Origin: an uncultured bacterium
GTDB lineage: Bacteria; Bacteroidota; Rhodothermia; Rhodothermales; UBA10348
NCBI GenBank assembly: GCA_943788505.1
Contig: CALSQR010000002.1
Coordinates: 819,213-883,212, forward strand
DNA length: 64,000 bases
Direction of reading: 5' to 3'
A model generated the notes under the pieces. That model was not told the DNA's origin. It worked only from the letters and a program-made list of their open reading frames with translations, and ran no database searches. Below are positions 10,415 through 26,886 of the stretch, piece by piece. Each line of letters opens with the position of its first letter. Position 1 is the first letter of the stretch. Made by a program: the position numbers and the translations under genes.

Positions 10415-11649
10415 GGCCTCTTTCCGAGCAACCAGCCTGCAGCAATACCTGATGCTAGTGTGATGGCGCCGATCGAGCCAATCGATGGCCCCATACCAAG
10501 CGTATCTGCAAGAAGACCGGCCAGTACCGCGCCTACGACATATCCACCGTCGCGCCACAGCCGATAAACACCCAGGGCCGATGCTCTCCAGGAAGGAGCA
10601 GCTTCGTCCGATATGACGGCTAGGAAAGCAGGATAGACCAATGCCGTGCCAAGCCCCTGACCAATCATGGCCGGCAGATACCACCCGGGCCCAGGCGCGA
10701 ACGCAACGAGCAAAAGACTGCTGCCCTGAAGTAGCATACCGATCGTGATGGGTAGACGGCGTCCTATCTTATCTGCCAATGCCCCTGTACCAAGTTGACC
10801 TAAACCCCAAACCAACGGGTAGATCGATACCAGCAAAGCGGTGTGTGCCACGTCAACATCTGCCGCCAGAAAGAAGAGAGGCAACAGCCCCCATGCCAAC
10901 CCGTCGTTCAAATTATTGACGAGGCCAGCCTGCGATACGGCCAGCATGCGTGGATTAGACCAAGAAACCTGCCGCAAAACAGACCCAAAGGATGGTGGTG
11001 CCTCAACCTCTCTCTGAAAGCCTGCTACCTCCGTCTTCAAATGGCCTGACGTATCCCGAACGAAAATCCACGAAAGGAGCAAGCCGATCACGGCCAGCGC
11101 AAATCCAGATAGGAATACACCGTCAGGTGAATGCTCGGCAATCCACCAGCCCGATCCAAACGCAGCTAAGGACACCGCTGCATAACCGGCCGACTCATTG
11201 ATTCCCAATGCTAAGCCGCGCTGGCGCGGTCCTACGAGATCAACTTTCATCACGACCGTCATGGTCCAAGCAAATCCTTGGTTGACCCCAAGCAATACAT
11301 TGGCAAAAACTACCCATCCCCACGACGGGGCCCAGAGTAGAATCAGCGGAACAGGCAATCCAACAAGCCAGCCTAAGATCAGTAGTCGTCGGCGCCCCCA
11401 CTGCTCTGCTAATCGCCCAGACATCAAGTTGGCCAATGCTTTAGCTGCCCCAAACGTCACAATAAAGGAAAGGGCTGCCGTGTAGCTAGCAAGCCCGAAT
11501 TGCGACTCAGCCAATACCGGAATCACGACCCGCTCAAGTCCAACCATCGCGCCCACAAACGCATTCACGAGAACCAGGAGACTGAATTGTCCCAGATTCT
11601 CACGTAATCCCAGTCGGTGAGATTTCGCATTGATTGGGGCTTGACTCAT
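10408..11649 (-). CDS. Major facilitator superfamily transporter
   Basis: A 413-residue protein with about twelve hydrophobic segments and MFS signatures: the loop 2-3 motif appears as GRLAEQWGRRRLLI and its second-half copy as GALADKIGRRLPI. SAGYAAVSLAAFGSGW lies in helix 5. It should be an inner-membrane secondary transporter, probably a drug/proton or metabolite exporter; the substrate cannot be inferred. It is divergent from clpB, and a 6+3+6 inverted repeat lies immediately upstream of its start codon. Confidence 0.88.
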   Translation of the reverse strand: MSQAPINAKSHRLGLRENLGQFSLLVLVNAFVGAMVGLERVVIPVLAESQFGLASYTAALSFIVTFGAAKALANLMSGRLAEQWGRRRLLILGWLVGLPVPLILLWAPSWGWVVFANVLLGVNQGFAWTMTVVMKVDLVGPRQRGLALGINESAGYAAVSLAAFGSGWWIAEHSPDGVFLSGFALAVIGLLLSWIFVRDTSGHLKTEVAGFQREVEAPPSFGSVLRQVSWSNPRMLAVSQAGLVNNLNDGLAWGLLPLFFLAADVDVAHTALLVSIYPLVWGLGQLGTGALADKIGRRLPITIGMLLQGSSLLLVAFAPGPGWYLPAMIGQGLGTALVYPAFLAVISDEAAPSWRASALGVYRLWRDGGYVVGAVLAGLLADTLGMGPSIGSIGAITLASGIAAGWLLGKRPQ

Positions 11650-11650
11650 G

Positions 11651-11665
11651 CTGTCAACCTGACAG
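11651..11665. promoter_or_regulatory. Inverted repeat before the MFS gene (possible operator)
   Basis: CTGTCA-ACC-TGACAG, a perfect 6-base inverted repeat, begins one base upstream of the MFS start codon in the region divergent from clpB. The size and place suit a repressor site controlling the transporter, but no regulator gene is adjacent and a single short repeat can arise by chance. Confidence 0.3.
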
Positions 11666-11779
11666 GTGAAGTGGATTGGTATGCTTTTGGCATGGACTCA
11701 TATCAGTTATCATACGTGATCTGCCTGACATTTCGTCGGTCGATTGCTGCAAATGGACCTCATAATGGTCGAGGAAGAC

Positions 11780-14476
11780 ATGAATCTCCAGAAATTTACG
11801 GTAAAGGCACAGGAAGCTGTTAAAACAGCTACTGAAATCGCCGCATCCCGCAATCACCAAGGAATCGAGCCGCCTCACTTGATGCAGGCTTTTCTTGGTG
11901 ATGCCAATGGTATTGCCATGACAATGCTGAGCCGACTTGGTGCCAGTATGGATCTTCTGATGGCCAAAACGGAGCAGGCTCTTGAAAAGCTGCCCGTGGT
12001 GACGGGCTCTTCCGTAAGTGGGCAATATGTCGGTGCTGATGCTAAAAACGTCTTCGACCGTGCCTTGGCAGAAGCCGAATTGCTAAAAGATGACTACGTC
12101 GCCACGGAGCACATCCTGATCGGACTTTCGGCATCCAAAGACGCCATTGGCGAGGCACTTCGCGGTCAAAATGTAACGAAAGAAGCCATATTAGGCATCC
12201 TGAAAGATGTTCGTGGAAACCAGAAGGTCACTGACCAGCATGCAGAGAGCCGTTATCAAGCGCTAGAACGGTACACGCGCAACCTTAACGATCTTGCCTC
12301 CCAAAACAAGATCGATCCCGTTATTGGTCGCGATGATGAAATCCGCCGCGTCCTTCAGATCCTGTCTCGCCGCACAAAGAACAATCCGATCCTGGTCGGT
12401 GAGCCAGGCGTTGGCAAGACGGCCATTGCAGAAGGCCTGGCCATCCGAATCGTTTCGGGCGATGTCCCGGACGGACTGAAGGATAAACGCATTCTCGCCC
12501 TGGACATGGGTGCGCTCATAGCTGGCGCCAAATACCGCGGCGAATTCGAGGATCGTCTCAAAGCCGTTATTCGAGAAATAGTCGAGTCGGAAGGACAGAT
12601 TGTGTTATTCATCGATGAGATTCATACGCTGGTTGGTGCGGGAGCCGCAGAAGGTGCGATGGATGCCGCAAATATCCTCAAGCCAGCCCTTGCTCGGGGA
12701 GAACTTCGGGCGATTGGTGCTACTACGTTGGATGAGTACCGGAAATACCTTGAAAAGGATAAGGCCCTCGAACGACGTTTTCAGATGGTGCTCGTTGAAG
12801 AGCCTTCCGTCGAAGACACCATTTCAATCTTACGCGGGATCAAGGAACGCTACGAAGTTCACCATGGTGTGCGCATCACTGATGGGGCCCTGGTCTCAGC
12901 GGCTGAATTGAGCCACCGCTACATCACGGCACGCTTCCTTCCAGATAAAGCCATTGATTTGATCGATGAGTCGGCAGCTCGCCTTCGTATTGAAATCGAT
13001 TCCATGCCGGAAGAATTGGATCAGCTCGAACGACAGATTCGACAACTCGAAATTGAACGGGAAGCCGTCAAGCGCGAGAAAGACGACAGTAAGCTTGCTC
13101 TGATCAAGGAGCAATTCGCCAATCTGGACGAAAAGCGGACTGAACTGAAGGCTCGCTGGACCCGGGAAAAGGAAATGATCCAGACTATCCAGCAAGCAAA
13201 GGAGGATATCGAGAATCTGCGTAATGAAGCAGAACAACTCGAACGCAAAGGTGAGTATGGAGAAGTTGCCGAGCTTCGATATGGACGAATTCCAAAGTTG
13301 GAAGAGCTGGTGACCGCTACCAAACAGCGGCTAGATGAAGTCCAAGAACATGGTGCCTTGCTCAAAGAAGAGATTGATTCGGAAGACATAGCCGCGATTA
13401 TCTCGCGCTGGACGGGCATTCCTGTTTCGAGGATGTTGGAAGGCGAGCGGGCCAAGTTGCTCAGACTGGAAGAATCTCTAGAGAAACGGGTTGTTGGCCA
13501 GCCGGAAGCACTGGCTGCCGTGGCCAATGCTGTCCGTAGAGGACGGGCTGGCTTACAGGAAGAGACCCGTCCCATTGGGTCCTTCATTTTCCTAGGCTCT
13601 ACCGGCGTTGGGAAAACCGAACTTGCCAAAGCACTCGCCGAATTCCTGTTCAATGACGAAAATGCGATGGTGCGTATTGACATGAGTGAGTACCAAGAGC
13701 GCCATACCGTCAGTCGTCTGGTTGGGGCACCTCCCGGATATGTCGGGTTTGAAGAGGGTGGCCAACTCAGTGAGCAGGTCCGTCGCAAACCTTATTCGGT
13801 GGTATTACTTGATGAGATTGAGAAGGCCCATCCGGAAGTCTTCAACATCTTATTGCAGGTCCTAGACGATGGGCGTCTGACCGACAATAGAGGCAGGGTC
13901 GTGGACTTCAAGAACAGTATTATCATCATGACATCGAACCTGGGATCGGAAGTTATCCAATCCAGAATGGATGCCATGGGTGAAGACATGTCAGCCCAAG
14001 ATGAATCAAATCTTGAGGCCGATCTGATGACACTCCTGAAGCAGAAACTGCGTCCCGAATTCCTAAACCGCATCGACGAGATCGTCACGTTCCATCCACT
14101 GGGACGTAAGGAAATTCGCCGCATCGTAGACATCCAGTTCGAACGAGTGCGTCGCCTAGCCATGAGCAGCAACATGATCGAAGTGGAACTGAGCGACGTT
14201 GCAAGGGATCGTATCGCAGCTATCGGATTTGATCCGGTCTTTGGAGCACGTCCGCTCAAAAGGGTCATTCAGCGCGAAATAACGAATAAATTGGCCGAAG
14301 AAGTGCTTTCAGGTTGGATCGAACCGGGTGAAACCATTCGCATCGATGTGGACTCGAAATCGAACGGGTTTACCTTCGAAACGGTGGCGGCCCCTACGGA
14401 TGAGAAGGCGGATAAAGCCAAGAAGGTCAAGAAGCCGGAGGGCAAAGAAAAAGCCAAGCCAAAAGCTCAGGCCTGA
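11780..14476 (+). CDS. clpB: ATP-dependent disaggregase ClpB
   Basis: An 898-residue AAA+ chaperone that threads aggregated proteins together with DnaK. The paired Clp_N repeats occupy residues 1-145. The first ATPase has Walker A GEPGVGKT at about 207-214. The coiled-coil middle domain (about 400-525) includes the ClpB-specific [16 protein letters not shown] segment, which separates it from ClpC/ClpA. The second ATPase has GSTGVGKT at about 606. There is no ClpP-binding IGF-type loop that I can see. The C-terminus ends in a Lys/Ala-rich tail ([20 protein letters not shown]) not usual in the family. The ATG at 11780 starts the conserved MNLQKFT and is preceded by GAGGAAG; in-frame upstream starts add unrelated residues. 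Confidence 0.95.
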
Positions 14477-19200: not shown

Positions 19201-19810
19201 GGATTCTTTCGAAGAGGAAAGAGAACGATTTCAGTTCATGACAGAACAGCTCGCTGACCTTGAGAAAGCCGAGTCGACGTTGATGACAACTATCGACGAG
19301 ATTAACACCACGGCAAGCCAGCGTTTTGAGACCACGTTTGCCGCCATTCGGGAAAATTTCCGAAGCCTGTTCGAAGAGCTGTTTGGTGAAGGTGCTGCCG
19401 CTGATATTGAGCTTGCCGATCCAGATGACCTATTAGAATCAGACGTCACTATTTTTGCGAAGCCACGTGGCAAGAAGCCGACTGTTCTCTCGCAGCTTTC
19501 CGGTGGAGAGAAAACCTTGACCGCGATCGCGCTACTATTCGCGATCTACCTCGTCAAGCCAAGCCCGTTCTGTATTCTCGATGAAGTGGATGCTCCACTC
19601 GACGATGCGAACGTTGATAGGTTCATGCACCTGATCCGGACGTTTTCTGAGTCTACGCAGTTCATCTTGGTAACGCACAACAAGCGAACGATGGAAGCTG
19701 CAGACCGCATGTACGGCATCACGATGCAGGAGCAGGGAGTGTCCCGATTAGTCGGCGTGAAGTTCGATGCAGATGAGGTCGAAGGCGAAGACCTTGAGCA
19801 AGTAGCCTGA
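16256..19810 (+). CDS. smc: Chromosome segregation ATPase SMC
   Basis: An 1184-residue SMC protein that compacts and segregates chromosomes with ScpA/ScpB. Walker A GPNGCGKSN is at 31-39. Long coiled coils flank a hinge domain at about 500-650 (ILNSFDDLSEPVQFLA to EWMDPNGYVHAG). The signature LSGGEKTLTAIALLFA starts at about 1081, and Walker B reads FCILDEVDAPLDDANV. The length matches canonical bacterial SMC. The ATG at 16256 begins the expected MYLSKLELHGFKSFAD. The scpAB genes are not in the window. The gene stands alone, facing the hprK gene at its 3' end. Confidence 0.96.
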   Translation: MYLSKLELHGFKSFADRTVVDFSDGVTVVVGPNGCGKSNIVDAVRWVIGEQRARILRSDKMDSVIFNGTSKRRSLGMAEVMLTIENTRGILPTEYSEVTIGRRLFRSGESEYLLNGVNCRLKDITDLFMDTGMGAGAYSVIELKMIEEILSENAADRRHLFEEAAGITKYKIRRGQTLRKLKSTQGDLDRVRDLTEELDKRVRSLERQAQKASRFKQYDERLHEVELTLGVMEYRQLTQEKEGVSKEIGHFSDAAAGFTAKLAAEEAAHESLRTDHVTREKQVTESQLKLSDHVDKLRAAESDLRIATERLATISRDLMRLDEESKAAVGQKESLLEDLKRYEAEQADVVPAAEQAERELSDAKRMRDEAQQTQQKHQVMLHNLRLQERQLTTDKADRQRQIDRLSSRIEIVTTDLETAKQALEDQSAAGTDMSERHAEVEAAVEAARKVADVAREALQSIESKKDELESGLTAHQVELRNAERSYDSADSEVTLLQGILNSFDDLSEPVQFLASDKGWSANDLVTVADIISCDEEWKVAVNAAMGDLASCIVVRTEKEAAQAIANLRKEEKGRATFLVLDRLPTKKRVATKGAACMADSIRIADTGYQPLVDLVFGSCYLADELDTSATNLHGRVFTRTGEWMDPNGYVHAGSAASEESVSYSRIGRREQLEKAQAALEKAGKRLVDAEKKWDELTAGLQQLGTVEAKQKARDASASLMESEKAHSRLSAETEMASKRRAETQHRITQLEASLLDARTQLAEAEKNVKSLTVQVADVQGKRGDAEAAFAGIEKASLEAFSLFNDANITAVQTRNRLDNLKRELVRVRSDLETLGRRAEERSNAITSLTTQRADLEKRCKELQISITSMQEARGELDAAVSAAKEHLMETKVAISELEARLREIRRERETAMRSESDRAVRQAELATRLEDLLASFEEDFEIDLTSHEMEVPEDFDRSAARMEVSELKNKIRNLGPVNALALDSFEEERERFQFMTEQLADLEKAESTLMTTIDEINTTASQRFETTFAAIRENFRSLFEELFGEGAAADIELADPDDLLESDVTIFAKPRGKKPTVLSQLSGGEKTLTAIALLFAIYLVKPSPFCILDEVDAPLDDANVDRFMHLIRTFSESTQFILVTHNKRTMEAADRMYGITMQEQGVSRLVGVKFDADEVEGEDLEQVA

Positions 19811-19903
19811 TTGGTCGCGAGGCGGGCTCAAAAATGCCGCTCAGGTGAATGGACTCAGACTGAAGGAATGACTCGCGGCTACCCAGCCGCAATTGAGTTC
19901 GGG

Positions 19904-20929
19904 CTACTCGTAATCATGCTCGAAATACTCAATCCCTCGCCCCGGATCAGAAGACGCCATTCCTTTCTTGCGGATCCGCTCGGACAACCGTTCTGCGAAT
20001 ACTTCCGCCGGGTCATACCCATAATGGCGTAATAGGTGGTTCATCGCTATCACCTCGCATAAAACGGTGACATTCTTACCTGGCGTGATCGGTAGCAAGA
20101 CAAGAGGAAGCTGCGCGCCTAGAATGTCGTACGTCTCTTCCATCATACCGAGCCGAGTATACTCTTCGTCCGGATCCCACGGGTGCAGGTTTACAACGAC
20201 TTCAATTCGCTTCTGAAAGCGGATGGCACGAATACCAAACATGGCTCGGACATCGACCAGACCCAATCCGCGAATTTCCATGAAATGCTGGACCAGATCC
20301 GTGCCAGATCCCATTACCACCTGACCTTCTTTTCGTGTAGCCATAACCACGTCGTCTGCGACGAGTCGATGACCACGTTCAACGAGGTCGAGCGCAACTT
20401 CGCTTTTGCCAATTCCGGCAGGACCAATCATCAAAAGCCCTATTCCGTACACATCGATCAGCGACCCATGAAGGGACTGCTGGGGCGCAAATTGGTCTTC
20501 GAGAAAATCCCTCAGCAAATACATGAATCGGGTACTGGGCTCCTCCGTGACATACACAGGAACGCCCGCATTCGTCGCTAAGGCTAGGAGTGGCTCATCT
20601 AGTACGTTACCCTCGGTGCAGATAATGCACGGGATGGGAAATTTGAGCACATTATTGAACGCCTTTTTGCGCTCCTCATCCGTTTCAAGATTGGCGAGGT
20701 AGCGGCATTCCGTATTCCCAAGGACTTGGACCCTCTGATGGGTAAATAATTCCAAATATCCTGCCAGGGCCATTCCAGGACGGTGCAGGTTACTTTCGGT
20801 AATGAGTCGCGTCTCAGCGTCCGTATAGTTGAGCGCCTTAGCGGTCATTCCGACCGATTTTTGAAGCTGTTCGACGGCAAAAGCCACCGAAATTGACTCC
20901 TTCTTGAACATTTTGGCTCTGCGGGCCAT
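19904..20929 (-). CDS. hprK: HPr kinase/phosphorylase
   Basis: Phosphorylates and dephosphorylates a serine of HPr or an HPr-like protein, coupling carbon status to regulation. The N-terminal domain (residues 1-140) is followed by the P-loop kinase domain starting HGSLIDVYGIGLLMIG, with loop GPAGIGKSE (the usual G-x-S-G becomes G-P-A-G), then GHRLVADD and IRGLGLVDVRAMFGI, the HprK signature. The C-terminus includes KNVTVLCEVIAMNHLLR. No HPr or PTS gene is in the window. It is the last gene of the fmt / GHMP / moxR / hprK run; its start is 12 bases after moxR. A second possible start at 20911 would shorten it by six residues. Confidence 0.94.
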   Translation of the reverse strand: MARRAKMFKKESISVAFAVEQLQKSVGMTAKALNYTDAETRLITESNLHRPGMALAGYLELFTHQRVQVLGNTECRYLANLETDEERKKAFNNVLKFPIPCIICTEGNVLDEPLLALATNAGVPVYVTEEPSTRFMYLLRDFLEDQFAPQQSLHGSLIDVYGIGLLMIGPAGIGKSEVALDLVERGHRLVADDVVMATRKEGQVVMGSGTDLVQHFMEIRGLGLVDVRAMFGIRAIRFQKRIEVVVNLHPWDPDEEYTRLGMMEETYDILGAQLPLVLLPITPGKNVTVLCEVIAMNHLLRHYGYDPAEVFAERLSERIRKKGMASSDPGRGIEYFEHDYE

Positions 20930-20941
20930 CAGACGAGGGGC

Positions 20942-21940
20942 TTAGGGTACTTCAACAGTGTCTAGAATACGCTGTACGATATCTTCGCTGCTGATCTCCT
21001 CCGCTTCTGCCTCGTACGTGACGGCGATTCTGTGGCGAAGAACATCCATAGCGATAGACCGAACATCTTCTGGCGTAATGTACGCACGATGCTGAAGGAA
21101 AGCGTGCGCGCGCGCCGCAAGGTTTAGGTTGATCGTGGCACGTGGGGAGGCGCCGTATTCAATGAGCGGCTTCAAAACGCCCAGCCCAACTTGCTCCGGT
21201 TCACGCGAGGCAACCACAAGGTCAACAATGTATTGCTCGACTCTGTCGTCGATGTACAACGCATTCAGCACTTTGCGCGCTTCGAGGATCTGCTCTGGAG
21301 AAACGACCTCTTTTATCTTGGTCTTTTCACCCGTTCTGGCCATGCGCCGCATGATTTCTAGCTCTTCTTCCCTAGTCGGATAACCCACTTTGATCTTCAT
21401 CATGAAGCGATCCACTTGGGCTTCCGGAAGCGGATATGTCCCTTCCTGTTCAATAGGGTTCTGTGTCGCAAGAACGAGGAATGGAGCTTCAAGTGGAAAC
21501 GTCGTATCTCCAATCGTGACTTGCCGTTCCTGCATGCTTTCGAGCAACGCGCTCTGCACCTTTGCCGGAGATCGGTTGATCTCATCCGCAAGAATGATAT
21601 TGGAGAAAATCGGGCCCTTCTTGATCGAGAAGCTCCCCTCCTTCGGATTAAACACTAGCGTTCCCAAAAGGTCAGCTGGCAGGAGGTCAGGAGTAAACTG
21701 GATCCGCTGAAACTGGGTGCCAATGGCTCCTGCAAGAGAAGAAACGGTAAGGGTCTTTGCCAGACCCGGAACGCCTTCAAGCAAGATGTGCCCGTCTCCA
21801 AGCAACCCTACTAGGAGTCGCTCGATCATGTACTTTTGCCCCACCACAACCTTGCCGATTTCCGTCAGAAGGTCGTCAATAAAGGCGCTTTCTTTTGCGA
21901 TGCGTTCGTTCACCGCTGAGATATCAAAGTCCGTGCTCAT
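20942..21940 (-). CDS. MoxR family AAA+ ATPase
   Basis: A 332-residue AAA ATPase of the MoxR group: Walker A LEGVPGLAKT near residue 55, the conserved FQRIQFTPDLLPADLLGT, Walker B IILADEINRSPAKVQSALLE, and a C-terminal lid (GASPRATINLNLAARAHAFL ... VTYEAEAEEISSEDIV). MoxR proteins act as chaperones for metal insertion or complex assembly, usually with DUF58 and VWA partners encoded next door. Here the partners are absent and the gene lies 9 bases after a galactokinase-like gene and 12 bases before hprK, an unusual context. Confidence 0.92.
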   Translation of the reverse strand: MSTDFDISAVNERIAKESAFIDDLLTEIGKVVVGQKYMIERLLVGLLGDGHILLEGVPGLAKTLTVSSLAGAIGTQFQRIQFTPDLLPADLLGTLVFNPKEGSFSIKKGPIFSNIILADEINRSPAKVQSALLESMQERQVTIGDTTFPLEAPFLVLATQNPIEQEGTYPLPEAQVDRFMMKIKVGYPTREEELEIMRRMARTGEKTKIKEVVSPEQILEARKVLNALYIDDRVEQYIVDLVVASREPEQVGLGVLKPLIEYGASPRATINLNLAARAHAFLQHRAYITPEDVRSIAMDVLRHRIAVTYEAEAEEISSEDIVQRILDTVEVP

Positions 21941-21949
21941 CAGGTTGTT

Positions 21950-23227
21950 TTAGATGATAAACGTTTCTATTTCTTCAGTCGTATGTGAGGTTGCCGCCTC
22001 GCGTAAAGAATCCAGAAATGCAGGAAGGGAGAAAGGTTGACCAGCAACCAGCATACATCCTCCTTCCCCTGTCTGAACTACACCGAATATACCGTCTAGC
22101 GAAGCGGATTCCGCAGTTCGAGTAACCAAATCATGGAGTTCACCCGCTGTGTTCCAATCCTGCTGCTTGGAGGCTTGTGATATTAGCATAAGCGCGCCGA
22201 AAAACTGCCAGTCCCCTTTGCGCAGTGCCACAACCATTTTTTGCACGTTTCGATTCTCTGTAACCAAATGTTTCAGCACAGGCCGGCTTTTGCGACCAAC
22301 CAAACTAACTGCCCGATCAAGGTCGCGATGCTCAAGATCCCGTAGGGAGGACACCTCCGAAAACGCCTTCTTCTGGAGATCTGCTAACGCCTTCTGGGCG
22401 GACCGAAAACGGCCGATGGAAGCTTCCATCGGCTGCGTCCAGTCGTGAGATGTCTCTAAGATGGCCCATCCGGGACGATTTGATGATTCTATTTCGATAG
22501 GGAGAAACTCAAATGTCCCTGTATCAACGAGTAAAAATGAATCCACATCATCAGAAGCCAATGTCCCTATGACATAAGCCGGACTGAACCAGTGCCCGTA
22601 CCAACTAGTCAGTCCTTCTATTGACTGATCACGCAGAAGAGTGCGAAATGACTCGGATTCAAGGCTTGGTTCATCGGAGGATGCTTCGATAGCGACGACT
22701 CGGTGCAATGCTTCAAGCACGCTTACGGCACAGGCCGCATGAAAGGCTGCCCCAAGACCGGTAGGAATCGCGCCCACAATTGAAATATCTACTTGAAGCC
22801 CTTTCTCGATTCCTGATGCATGGAAAAGAGATGCCAAGAGGCCTGCAAATCCACTTTGGCCCGCATCTGACAGATCGAATTGGATAATGTCAGGTACTCC
22901 CTCAACAACCATTCGAGAGCGTTCACCATCATGAGAACGCATCGAAACGGCCAACCCCTGCTGGAGGCGCAGAAGTAACGCGAAACCTTTGAAATAGTGT
23001 GTGTGATCAGCAACTACCCCGACACATCCACGACTGAATGTTGTAATCGGCTGACCACCTGCTGCGCCCAGACGATCCATGAGAATAGACCGAGAACGAT
23101 CCATGTATTGGGATGGGCGAAGCACTTCGTTCGCCTGCATACGATTAAGCGCATAAAGGAAAGGTCGAACAAAGGAAGGCGTCATGCCTCCTTCCGTACC
23201 GAGTCGTCTGGGTTCCATGTCAGACAT
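21950..23227 (-). CDS. Divergent galactokinase-like GHMP family protein, motifs degraded
   Basis: A protein of about 425 residues that follows the galactokinase layout but with altered motifs. Motif 1, normally GR-N-IG-H-DY, reads GCVGVVADHTHY, keeping H-T-x-Y but not the Asp. Motif 2, normally P-G-GLSSSA, reads IPTGLGAAFHAACA without the serine run that holds ATP phosphates. Motif 3 (normally TGAG-GG) reads GVVQTGEGGCMLVAG. An alpha-helical middle (QKALADLQKKAFSEVSSL) matches galactokinase position. Either it binds a sugar without phosphorylating it or uses a different substrate. Start ATG 23227 overlaps the end of fmt by 8 bases; ATG 23218 is an alternative. Confidence 0.75.
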   Translation of the reverse strand: MSDMEPRRLGTEGGMTPSFVRPFLYALNRMQANEVLRPSQYMDRSRSILMDRLGAAGGQPITTFSRGCVGVVADHTHYFKGFALLLRLQQGLAVSMRSHDGERSRMVVEGVPDIIQFDLSDAGQSGFAGLLASLFHASGIEKGLQVDISIVGAIPTGLGAAFHAACAVSVLEALHRVVAIEASSDEPSLESESFRTLLRDQSIEGLTSWYGHWFSPAYVIGTLASDDVDSFLLVDTGTFEFLPIEIESSNRPGWAILETSHDWTQPMEASIGRFRSAQKALADLQKKAFSEVSSLRDLEHRDLDRAVSLVGRKSRPVLKHLVTENRNVQKMVVALRKGDWQFFGALMLISQASKQQDWNTAGELHDLVTRTAESASLDGIFGVVQTGEGGCMLVAGQPFSLPAFLDSLREAATSHTTEEIETFII

Positions 23228-24173
23228 CCTCGAATTGTTGACCCACTTCAAGACGCATGCCCCGCACAAAATCGGCTGCGAGAAGACGCTGCTTGCCTTC
23301 CGCCTGAAGTTCTATCAGTTCAATAGCGCCATTGCCACACGCAACAATCAGATCTGGTTCGACAGCAACGATTGTGCCTGCAGATGCCGTTCCACTGGAA
23401 AGACGACTGCGATATAATTTTACTTGGCGGCCCTCAAGCTTTGTAACCGCCCCAGGAATGGGTGATACAGCTCGAATCAGGTTGTGGACTTCTTCTGAGG
23501 CTCGATTCCAATCCACTTTGCAATCTTCCCGGAAGATCTTGGGAGCGGGTGTTGCTAGTGTATCATCCTGGGGCTGCCCTTTAGCCTCACCATCGATAAT
23601 CATTCGTGTGGTCTCGATGACCACTTGGGCGCCCATGATCATCATCCTGTCATGGACCTCTCCGGCGGTTTCATTCGGCCCGATGTCCATCGAGCGCTTC
23701 ATGATAATGGCTCCGGTATCTACTTTGCTCCTCAGGAAAAACGTGGTGACACCCGTCTCTGTCGCACCAGCCATGATCGCCCGGTTGATGGGAGCTGCTC
23801 CACGCCAGGCTGGAAGCAGCGAGCCATGCAGGTTAAAGGTCGCGAGCCTTGAGGCAGCAAACACAGCTTCTGGAAGAATGCGAAAAGCCACGACTACCAT
23901 AATATCAGGCTGCAGCGCGCGGATATCAGTCGCAAACGAATCGCTTTTTACGTCCTCGGGCTCAAGGATTGATTCAATGCCCAATTCAAGTGCAGCCGCC
24001 TTGACAGGAGTAGGTGTCAAAACCTGCCCTCTACCACGTTTTCGATCCGGCCCGGTGACGACTGCAATCGGCTTCAGGCCCGCCGCGGCAAGTGCACGAA
24101 GCGAGGGCACAGCAAAGTCTGGCGTGCCCATGAACACGATGCGTGGCGATATGATGGCGTCCTTTGAATTCAT
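23220..24173 (-). CDS. fmt: Methionyl-tRNA formyltransferase
   Basis: Transfers the formyl group of 10-formyltetrahydrofolate to initiator Met-tRNA. A 317-residue enzyme with RIVFMGTPDFAVPSLRAL at the start, the catalytic region FNLHGSLLPAWRGAAPINRA (Asn, His), the conserved VTTFFLRSKVDTGAII (catalytic Asp), and a C-terminal OB-like domain (GRQVKLYRS to DFVRGMRL). It is the first gene of a four-gene minus-strand run with the galactokinase-like gene, moxR and hprK. The usual partner def (peptide deformylase) is not present. Confidence 0.95.
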   Translation of the reverse strand: MNSKDAIISPRIVFMGTPDFAVPSLRALAAAGLKPIAVVTGPDRKRGRGQVLTPTPVKAAALELGIESILEPEDVKSDSFATDIRALQPDIMVVVAFRILPEAVFAASRLATFNLHGSLLPAWRGAAPINRAIMAGATETGVTTFFLRSKVDTGAIIMKRSMDIGPNETAGEVHDRMMIMGAQVVIETTRMIIDGEAKGQPQDDTLATPAPKIFREDCKVDWNRASEEVHNLIRAVSPIPGAVTKLEGRQVKLYRSRLSSGTASAGTIVAVEPDLIVACGNGAIELIELQAEGKQRLLAADFVRGMRLEVGQQFEDV

Positions 24174-24249
24174 TCTGTCGAATCCCGAAAAAGAGCGTAC
24201 GCTGTTCCCTGAAACCCGTTCTCCCCGTTGGAGATTCCGCTACAAAGCA

Positions 24250-24286
24250 ATAACGCGCCCGCATGCAAAGCCTGCGGGCGCGTTAT
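24250..24286 (-). terminator. Strong hairpin between GWxTD gene and fmt
   Basis: A perfect 14-base inverted repeat (24250-24263 and 24273-24286) with a 9-base loop and a core of CGCGCCCGCA. It lies 37 bases after the stop of the GWxTD gene. Neither side has a clean run of T, so it may terminate weakly or protect a transcript end rather than be a classical intrinsic terminator. Confidence 0.5.
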
Positions 24287-24323
24287 CAAAAGTGTGTCAT
24301 CAATCAAGGCACTTGGGGGAAGC

Positions 24324-25736
24324 TTAATAAAGGCGTGTTCTTTCGTCCCAGACATTAAACAGAAGCTCGTAATCACCGAATCCCGTTTTGTCTACAAAGA
24401 TGAACTGACGACCGATGCGTTCGAATACCCATATTTCGTACGGCTCGTAATCGAAGCTGTGTGGTTTCCGTCTGACATGGTCAGGCTCGCCGAATCGGAC
24501 GAGTACAAAACCTCGGTCTGTCCTCCACCCCTCACGCACGGCGCCGTAATTACGGTTAGCTGCATTGATACGATAGTAGTACGCCTCCATACGCTCATTG
24601 CGGCGAGTGCCCGGCGTAGGATCCCTTTTCTCCCAGAAGTTTTCGAATCGCTGGATTCGTTCAACTTCGTTTGGGGCATCCTTGATAAAGTTCAAATCGC
24701 GCGGCTCCGCGATGTATTCCATTTGTGCGATGGCATCATCTATATCCTCAATATGATTTGCCAACCCATTCCACTCCACCACAAACTGCCGCTCGGTGCG
24801 ATCCAGGACGTCGCCTGTTATGGGATCTGAAACAGCCAGCTCTATTGCGTAGGCTCCCACCCTAAAATCTTCGATAGGAACGGTCACAATGAATTGATTC
24901 TTGCTCGTATTGACGCCGATCGATTCGTTCTCCGTTAGGACCACATCCGTATCGACAATCTCTCCCTCGGGGACATCTTCTGGAATCTCTGAAAGAGAGC
25001 CATCCATTAGCGTTCGGCGAATTACACGGGATACGTCGAGATCGCGTGCCTCAGATGAATAGACCTCATAAAACATGCGGAATCCACCTTCATCACTACC
25101 AACACGGGCGTTGACCCTAGGGATTATGGTGAAGTCTGAGTCGTCGTACGAGTCGATGAGCGTTACATCCGAAACCGTGACCGCACTGTTCATTGGGCGA
25201 ACTGTAACCGGCAGACTGCGAACATACGTCCTATTCGAATTGTGGTCAGACACCTCAAATTCGAATAGATACTTGCCCGGATCCAATGAAATAGTTTGTG
25301 TAGTAAAGTCGAATCGATCATCGGATTGGGTATCCTGATAGGAATTAACCGTAACCGATGCATCCCAAATACGAGACTGTACCAGGTTGCGCAACCGATC
25401 ATCGTCCGACCAGACAATGGCATCGAGCTTGACTTCGTACCCAGCTGAAAAACCAGTCGCTGAGTTGACAAAACTCATCTGCGTGATTGGAACACGCGTG
25501 TAAATATCGACCTTCGGTGCATTTGACCCATCACCCATGCGGCCAGCCACCACATCCACCTCAAAGTCAGCCGTCACCATCTGCGCAAGAGCAGGACGCC
25601 ACGAAAAACTCGATAGAAGTACAACTAGCAATACGAATCGTCCTAGCCAACGGGATCGATTCTGTATGGATATATGTCTTCCGTTGACGATCGTGATCGC
25701 TGCACCTGCAGTTGATAGTAAACCACGACGCTCCAT
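24324..25736 (-). CDS. GWxTD domain protein
   Basis: A 470-residue exported protein: an N-terminal basic stretch is followed by a hydrophobic segment (GRFVLLVVLLSSFSW) ending RPALAQ. The long middle is beta-rich (Ig-like). The C-terminal GWxTD domain is recognised by YYYRINAANRNYG, EGWRTDRGFVLVRFGEPDH and YEIWVFERIGRQFIFVD. GWxTD proteins occur in Bacteroidota and related phyla, often near regulators or proteases; their role is unknown. The gene is separated from fmt by a strong hairpin, so it is likely a separate unit. The start could lie further in; M1 is kept because the signal still follows. Confidence 0.86.
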   Translation of the reverse strand: MERRGLLSTAGAAITIVNGRHISIQNRSRWLGRFVLLVVLLSSFSWRPALAQMVTADFEVDVVAGRMGDGSNAPKVDIYTRVPITQMSFVNSATGFSAGYEVKLDAIVWSDDDRLRNLVQSRIWDASVTVNSYQDTQSDDRFDFTTQTISLDPGKYLFEFEVSDHNSNRTYVRSLPVTVRPMNSAVTVSDVTLIDSYDDSDFTIIPRVNARVGSDEGGFRMFYEVYSSEARDLDVSRVIRRTLMDGSLSEIPEDVPEGEIVDTDVVLTENESIGVNTSKNQFIVTVPIEDFRVGAYAIELAVSDPITGDVLDRTERQFVVEWNGLANHIEDIDDAIAQMEYIAEPRDLNFIKDAPNEVERIQRFENFWEKRDPTPGTRRNERMEAYYYRINAANRNYGAVREGWRTDRGFVLVRFGEPDHVRRKPHSFDYEPYEIWVFERIGRQFIFVDKTGFGDYELLFNVWDERTRLY

Positions 25737-25938
25737 CTACTTCTCGTTTCGGCTATTGTACCAGTTGGTCGTTCAATTCATTGTTCAGAGGCAAATCCAC
25801 AGCTAGCGGACGCTTCGTCACTCTACCAAATATCGGCTTTCTTAGCGCGACAGTCCATCTCCCGTGAACAGACCGTCAATATTTACCTTTGAATGGTAGG
25901 GGACCGTCATCGAACCGGATAGACTGGAATTCTTACCA

Positions 25939-26886
25939 TCATGCCCCAAAAAGTGCCCCTACAAACCGAGGACGATCGAAAAGCTGAAGATCTTCTATCC
26001 CCTCTCCGACGCCAATATATTTTACGGGAATACGGAATTCGTTCGAAATGCCAATCACGATACCCCCTTTGGCTGTTCCGTCTAGTTTGGTCAGCACCAG
26101 TCCAGTCACATCAACTGCATTGGTAAATTCCTGTGCCTGGCGGATGGCATTTTGGCCCGTTGATGCATCGAGTACCAATAAGACCTCATGGGGCGCGCCA
26201 ACAACTTGTTTGTCCATGACGCGCTTAATCTTCGTTAGCTCGTCCATAAGGCCGCCCTTCGTATGTAGTCGCCCGGCTGTATCGATCAAGACTACGTCTA
26301 TGTTTCGGGATTTTGCCGCCGCGATCGTGTCATAAGCAACGGCGGCAGGATCGGCGCCATGGCCCTGCTTAGTAATGGGTACATCAGCACGTTCAGCCCA
26401 GATGTCGAGCTGTTCGGTGGCTGCGGCCCGAAAGGTATCTGCCGCACCCAGCATAACAGATTTTCCTGCTGCTTTGTAGCGGGAGGCCAATTTCCCAATA
26501 GTGGTCGTCTTGCCAACACCGTTGACCCCAACCACCATGATCACATGTGGTGAATTGGGTAGCGGAGCGTCGAAATCTATCGGCTGGGTCGGGTTGTCCG
26601 AAAGCAGTAGACTCGTGATTTCATCTTTGATCAGCGTATTCAGATCATCAATAGACACAAACTTGTCTCTGGAAACCCGATCCTCCACCTGTCGGATAAT
26701 GTCTACCGTTGTTTTTACCCCCACGTCACTGGTCACCAGCAGTTCTTCCAGATCATCAAGCATTTCCTCATCAACTGAATCCTTCCCGCGCACCATTTTA
26801 TTCAGTTTCCCGAAAAAGGAACTGCGCGTTTTCTCAAGCCCTGACTCCAGGATTTCCTGCTGTTTTCCGCGGTTAAAAAGACCCAT
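25939..26886 (-). CDS. ftsY: Signal recognition particle receptor FtsY
   Basis: Docking GTPase for SRP-ribosome complexes at the inner membrane. 315 residues: a short N-terminal part (MGLFNRGKQQEILESGLEKT) lacking the long acidic A domain of E. coli FtsY, a four-helix N domain (LDDLEELLVTSDVGVKTT), then the G domain with GVNGVGKTTTIGKLA, DTFRAAATEQL, IDTAGRLHTKGGLMDEL, TKLDGTAKGG and a GVGEGIEDLQLFD closing motif. The start at 26886 is chosen because the upstream in-frame residues are Cys/Phe/Ser rich and unlike the family. It follows the phosphatidyltransferase gene by about 107 bases. Confidence 0.95.
   Translation of the reverse strand: MGLFNRGKQQEILESGLEKTRSSFFGKLNKMVRGKDSVDEEMLDDLEELLVTSDVGVKTTVDIIRQVEDRVSRDKFVSIDDLNTLIKDEITSLLLSDNPTQPIDFDAPLPNSPHVIMVVGVNGVGKTTTIGKLASRYKAAGKSVMLGAADTFRAAATEQLDIWAERADVPITKQGHGADPAAVAYDTIAAAKSRNIDVVLIDTAGRLHTKGGLMDELTKIKRVMDKQVVGAPHEVLLVLDASTGQNAIRQAQEFTNAVDVTGLVLTKLDGTAKGGIVIGISNEFRIPVKYIGVGEGIEDLQLFDRPRFVGALFGA

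Follow-up and report, generated by a model that had tools for sequence, protein, structure and literature searches.

What can a protein do that keeps the galactokinase fold but has lost the active site, and what is it doing directly before the genes for a MoxR ATPase and HPr kinase? Retired enzymes of the GHMP fold are known in regulatory roles, namely yeast Gal3 and worm XOL-1. The question arises from a gene in a 64,000-nt window, the whole stretch of DNA analysed here, from an uncultured bacterium of the order Rhodothermales. A preliminary description placed a galactokinase-like protein with broken kinase motifs at 21950–23227, between a formyltransferase and MoxR with HprK beyond, and proposed that it may sense sugar as Gal3 does and feed HprK. 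These coordinates are right; the strand, which was not given there, is minus, and the start codon is the ATG at 23227. The open reading frame, its translation, the fold and the motif loss define the product, here called GalKL, as a galactokinase-fold protein of 425 aa with a broken catalytic site.

The three neighbours carry the identities first assigned to them, as named by Pfam and NCBIfam and supported by synteny, and all lie on the minus strand. Upstream, the gene for methionyl-tRNA formyltransferase (fmt, 23220–24173; TIGR00460, 264 bits) overlaps that of GalKL by 8 bases. Directly downstream, after a gap of 9 bases, lies the gene for the MoxR AAA+ ATPase (20942–21940; PF07726 and PF17863), followed after 12 bases by that for the HPr(Ser) kinase/phosphorylase HprK (19904–20929; TIGR00679, 352 bits). 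The genes upstream of GalKL (ftsY, pgsA, and fmt) are housekeeping genes, and a GWxTD-domain protein (24324–25736) is found upstream of fmt in most loci read. Rfam gave no match anywhere in the window, and promoter-like and terminator-like sites in 19700–26200 showed no excess over shuffled sequences. A regulatory RNA or promoter signal is rejected as an explanation, with Rfam empty and site counts no higher than in the shuffles.

Fold and active site of GalKL

The homology of GalKL to galactokinase is weak by sequence. NCBIfam galactokinase profiles matched it at 51–62 bits against cut-offs of 227–509, so that none passed; the best match (6.5e-17) scored 61 bits where 509 are required. A phmmer search of the PDB returned galactokinases (best 8e-11), and Pfam gave no match above cut-off, with only a sub-threshold match to the GHMP C-terminal domain. 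In the predicted structure, the homology is unmistakable. The AlphaFold2 model, built from an alignment of 28 family sequences, has a pLDDT of 87.6 and a pTM of 0.86, and all 50 of the 50 Foldseek matches listed for it are galactokinases. With VIA-align, the model superposes on human GALK1 (1wuu_B) with Z 40.8 and rmsd 2.7 over 365 residues at 19% identity, and on yeast Gal3p in its complex (3v2u_C) with Z 31.8. A distant member on a contig titled Rhodothermus sp. (L095), only 31% identical to the window GalKL, gave a model with pLDDT 89.0 and Z 39.0 against galactokinase. Residues ~1–32 of the window protein fall outside the structural match, and model confidence there is partly low. From the models, we are confident that the galactokinase fold covers the chain end to end; structure modelling, which had been proposed as a check, has borne out the claim that fold and length are kept.

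For the active site, 41 GalKL members (the window and 40 other genomes, with the partial member L061 left out) were aligned with 26 ordinary galactokinases from the same phylum. Five residues occur in 26/26 galactokinases and 0/41 GalKL members: the PGRVN Arg, the HTDY Asp, the second and third P-loop Ser, and the catalytic GIMDQ Asp. In human numbering, we take these residues to be R37, D46, S140, S141, and D186. The broken motifs first reported, ADHTHY and PTGLGAAFHAACA, are both confirmed in the translation, and the damage is more thorough than stated, with the catalytic Asp and the PGRVN Arg gone as well. Orthologues with intact motifs were looked for among the 41 members, none of which has the tested residues. 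Since every orthologue lacks them, the motif loss is neither chance nor the decay of one genome.

The replacements have a pattern of their own. In the sugar motif (residues 66–81; 22985–23032, minus strand), PGRVNLIGEHTDYxxG has given way to RGCVGVVADHTHYFKG, in which the PGRVN Arg is Cys and the family-conserved F79 follows H77, a His found at the HTDY Asp position in 35/41 members. The ATP loop PxGxGLSSSAA is degenerate (residues 155–166, PTGLGAAFHAAC; 22730–22765, minus strand), and the position of S140 is occupied by Phe or Tyr in 31 of the 41. At the catalytic site (residues 211–222; 22562–22597, minus strand), GVQCGIMDQ is replaced by GHWFSPAYVIGT; the stretch aligned to the catalytic Asp reads YGHWFSPAYVIG, without Asp, and S215 and A217 are found in 37/41 and 40/41 members. 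The most conserved block of the family, with invariant columns, runs from RDLEHRDL to LVTENRNVQKMVVALRKGDWQFFGALM (residues ~295–356; 22160–22345, minus strand) and includes W340 (40/41) and Q341 (41/41). Altogether, galactokinases conserve 44 sites at 95% or more, and 23 of these are lost in most GalKL members; 30 sites at least 80% conserved in GalKL, among them His77, Phe79, Ser215, Ala217, and W340-Q341, are rare in galactokinases. Because the replacements (HTHYF, FSxAY, and DWQ) are conserved within the family, the old active site has not simply drifted but was remodelled and afterwards maintained.

Some of the ancestral features persist. The His and Tyr of motif 1 and most Gly residues of motif 3 are retained, as are several C-terminal sites, and the glycine loop is partly kept (PTGLG or similar) in the taxonomic family of the window, although it is hardly recognisable outside it. 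Pfam GHMP_kinases_N matched one of 28 members (0.0024), and the Pfam galactose-binding signature matched 16/28 at E 0.01 or better. The residue pattern indicates with high confidence that catalysis is lost and, with moderate confidence, that binding of ATP and galactose is lost too. Residual nucleotide binding is possible, because PTGLG in the clade of the window and most of the motif 3 Gly residues remain. An ordinary galactokinase misread as broken is rejected as an explanation: the same alignment method keeps all five residues in the 26 galactokinases, and the window genome has a separate intact galactokinase (L063:5101–6384). In that copy, GEHTDY reads GNHTDY and GIMDQ reads GLLDQ, and it falls with similar copies of relatives in a galactokinase subgroup of its own.

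Distribution, selection, and operon context

A GalKL profile search of 296 genomes of the phylum yielded 16 members at 441–587 bits, with everything else at 154 bits or below; the lower-scoring matches that were read are ordinary galactokinases. All 16 lie within the order of the window (Rhodothermales by record titles). The 28 GalKL loci on contigs with a record title come from metagenome-assembled genomes titled Rhodothermales, Rhodothermia, Rhodothermaceae, Rhodothermus, Bacteroidetes/Bacteroidota, or bacterium. In a tree of the 41 members and 26 galactokinases, one fully supported branch separates the two sets, and GalKL subgroups track taxonomic families. GalKL is one clade, confined to one order in the genomes searched. 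It is not a substitute for galK, as G000 and several relatives encode both GalKL and an ordinary galactokinase.

Substitution rates were estimated in one group of five genomes within the genus. Four pairs with the window gave pN/pS of 0.35–0.37, with synonymous sites near saturation, and two unsaturated pairs gave dN/dS of 0.06–0.07. GalKL evolves about as fast as Fmt and much faster than MoxR and HprK, and no internal stop occurs in any match listed. By these measures, GalKL behaves as a functional, fast-evolving protein under strong purifying selection, and the stop-free frames and the selection rule out a decaying pseudogene. Within the genus, identities between MoxR proteins (93–94%) far exceed those between GalKL proteins (59–62%), which makes tight co-evolution of the two look unlikely.

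Conservation of the operon, another check proposed at the outset, was found across 35 GalKL loci. A MoxR gene lies directly downstream on the same strand in 34 of them, followed by HprK in 33, and the loci without a MoxR or HprK match are cut by contig ends. Always, moxR lies between GalKL and hprK. The fmt gene is upstream in 30/35 loci, and the adjacency of GalKL to moxR is also kept in four loci that have MoxR but in which no fmt was found close by.

The reverse does not hold. Among 18 genomes of the order searched for HprK, it is full in 11, and the surroundings were read for 10 of these (G057 was left out). In all 10 (L136, L138, L139, L140, L142, L143, L144, L146, L147, and L148), moxR and hprK are adjacent without GalKL, which is therefore an accessory gene and not essential to MoxR or HprK. 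A hidden copy in the slot is rejected for L138, L139, L140, L142, L144, L147, and L148, where the gap between fmt and moxR is too small; in L136 and L143, fmt is not adjacent to moxR. In L146 (G027), the slot is occupied by an MMPL-type transporter, as named by eye (MMPL/RND-like; L146:5210–7516), and a similar gene is found just upstream of a GalKL at L047:10202–12586. A strongly diverged GalKL copy elsewhere in the genomes lacking it is possible. No HprK match was found in G009, G035, G040, G041, G050, or G059, and only a fragment in G010. In three loci of the same class from families outside the order (L137, L141, and L145), HprK occurs without a MoxR match; within the order, moxR and hprK are neighbours at every locus read, whether GalKL is present or absent. 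No paper naming both hprK and moxR was found in the open-access literature.

Mapped on a tree of MoxR and HprK with 44 rows, GalKL is present in 34 and absent in 10, giving six changes, at least four of them forced by well-supported branches; the tree is a quick one with SH-aLRT support only, and gain and loss are indistinguishable from it alone. Since GalKL always occupies the same slot and its genes form a single clade, the simplest story is one early gain followed by several losses.

Candidate roles beside MoxR and HprK

GalKL probably works by protein contact and not by making a sugar phosphate, a contact role being the most likely because fold, frame, and place are kept but the active site is gone. 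As MoxR stays beside GalKL in every readable locus, it is the first candidate partner, with HprK second. The reading that we favour, at somewhat short of even confidence, is that GalKL is a partner of MoxR with a galactokinase fold but no catalysis, and that it perhaps ties MoxR to carbon control by HprK. GalKL would be an ancient galactokinase paralogue that, judging from its residues, lost catalysis and kept the fold; it would now serve the MoxR ring as an adaptor, a client, or a regulatory cap, much as metabolic enzymes and VWA proteins do with other members of the MoxR group, and the operon that they share would link the MoxR chaperone to HprK-based carbon control via GalKL. The residue loss, the confident models, the purifying selection, the presence of MoxR in 34/35 loci, and the precedent of RavA with LdcI count in favour of this partnership; against it, the adjacency could reflect co-expression only, the moxR-hprK pair occurs without GalKL in 10 genomes, some nucleotide binding may persist, and MoxR is much better conserved than GalKL. 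The fold (in predicted models), the residue loss, the purifying selection, the single clade, and the constant position before moxR are observed, and the absence of activity, binding to MoxR, and any effect on HprK are inferred.

In the literature, MoxR proteins are described as working with VWA partners, as in NorQ-NorD and RavA-ViaA, and one study describes a cage formed by the MoxR protein RavA with the metabolic enzyme LdcI (PMC6987120), the nearest precedent for a partner with an enzyme fold. GalKL resembles RavA-LdcI, NorQ-NorD, and the Bat/VWA operons in that moxR adjoins the gene of a candidate dedicated partner. It differs in that the partner has a galactokinase fold and is not a VWA or DUF58 protein, and in that the DUF58-BatA-BatD cluster of the window genome lies elsewhere. 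That DUF58-BatA-VWA-TPR-BatD cluster (L181:5755–12365), ~0.3 Mb from the GalKL operon, has no moxR, and the moxR of the hprK operon may serve it. The Pfam and NCBIfam scan found no VWA or DUF58 domain in the proteins neighbouring the window moxR. A second MoxR of the window genome, 45% identical, lies near SurA/PpiC-like genes, as named by eye. In eight of eight genomes of the order (L151–L158), no MoxR match occurs within ~1.5 kb on either side of the best DUF58 gene, and two further DUF58 loci (L159 and L160) do have one. A search with the operon MoxR gave matches in 13/14 other genomes of the phylum; in two of the best-match loci (L190 and L192), moxR immediately precedes a DUF58 gene of the bat type, and a second-best copy (L196) has a weak DUF58-like neighbour. 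This weakly suggests that the moxR of the hprK operon is the one that serves Bat proteins elsewhere. A fuller proposal, in which the galactokinase-derived pseudokinase is a dedicated MoxR adaptor coupling MoxR and its Bat/VWA clients to HprK/HPr, as a bacterial GHMP signalling pseudokinase, is unlikely.

The alternative that survives best, a lesser though not negligible prospect, is a small-molecule sensor, in which the remodelled pocket (His77 and FSxAY) would bind another metabolite without phosphorylating it and report to MoxR or HprK. The conservation of H77, S215, and A217 at the old site and the galactose-binding signature in 16 of 28 members would fit such a role, whereas the Phe or Tyr that replaces S140 in most members suggests that the pocket is filled.

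Considerably less probable is a direct action of GalKL on HprK, like that of Gal3 on Gal80, by which it would bind HprK and set the balance between kinase and phosphorylase. The usual target of HprK is present, as HPr, carrying the His15 and Ser46 motifs (L074:11127–11396), is encoded directly before enzyme I (11368–13197), and the operon is shared with hprK in 33/35 loci. However, moxR always intervenes, the galactose and ATP sites on which Gal3 relies are gone, and a search of 21 genomes (20 lacking a match at GalKL level, and G010 with a fragment) found full HprK in 14. The suggestion that GalKL feeds HprK draws on proximity only and is not supported: GalKL adjoins moxR, not hprK, and the moxR-hprK pair does without it in 10 genomes.

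The comparison with Gal3 survives in part. Yeast Gal3p likewise has a galactokinase fold without a kinase role, the 3v2u_C structure being Gal3p with Gal80p, galactose, and ATP, and the picture of a retired enzyme stands. The galactose sensor is not supported, as the tested residues of the galactose and ATP sites are replaced in 41/41 members. In PMC8964464, Gal3 is described as signalling only when bound to galactose, and the title of a reference cited there states that a two-residue insertion converts Gal3 to a galactokinase. Gal3-type sensing is weakened for GalKL because other residues stand in for the Arg, the HTDY Asp, the catalytic Asp, and the P-loop Ser alike; as its sequence stands, galactose and ATP should not bind in the known way.

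By analogy, Caenorhabditis elegans XOL-1 fits better as a parallel than Gal3. In PMC11349215, XOL-1 has a GHMP fold, ATP-binding assays with it failed, and it is regulatory through contacts that are not identified; the likeness to GalKL, drawn by description only, is that of a GHMP-fold regulator without detected ATP binding. GalKL combines the features of an XOL-1-like GHMP pseudokinase, that is, a GHMP fold, ATP-site residues gone, and selection. XOL-1 differs as a nematode sex-determination protein of unrelated context, and it is absent among the structural matches listed for the GalKL models.

Two readings are very improbable. GalKL may still be an enzyme, a GHMP kinase that acts on a different substrate or through a new arrangement of catalytic residues. 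The complete fold and the glycine loop part and motif 3 kept in the taxonomic family of the window speak for this, but the catalytic Asp, P-loop Ser, and active-site Arg are each at 0/41 and the loop fades outside that family. To the same slight degree, GalKL may have nothing specific to do with MoxR or HprK and be a scaffold of an unrelated pathway in a housekeeping operon with fmt, given ftsY, pgsA, and fmt upstream and the undisturbed moxR-hprK pair as GalKL comes and goes; the place before moxR is nevertheless kept in the four loci without fmt nearby.

Set beside galactokinase (GalK/GALK1) of the GHMP superfamily, with which it shares the whole fold, GalKL differs in the five lost residues, in falling below all NCBIfam cut-offs, and in the separate intact copy in the genome. 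No publication on a bacterial GHMP pseudokinase, on galactokinase together with MoxR and HPr kinase, or on galactokinase in Rhodothermales was found in the open-access literature. Judged from its sequences, GalKL is a bacterial GHMP pseudokinase family tied to the MoxR-HprK operon in one order among the genomes searched. GalKL, MoxR, and HprK form a set of few small proteins that is directly testable. Should GalKL prove to bind MoxR or HprK, it would offer a handle on the function of MoxR in the Bacteroidota-Rhodothermota group and on the use of HprK there.
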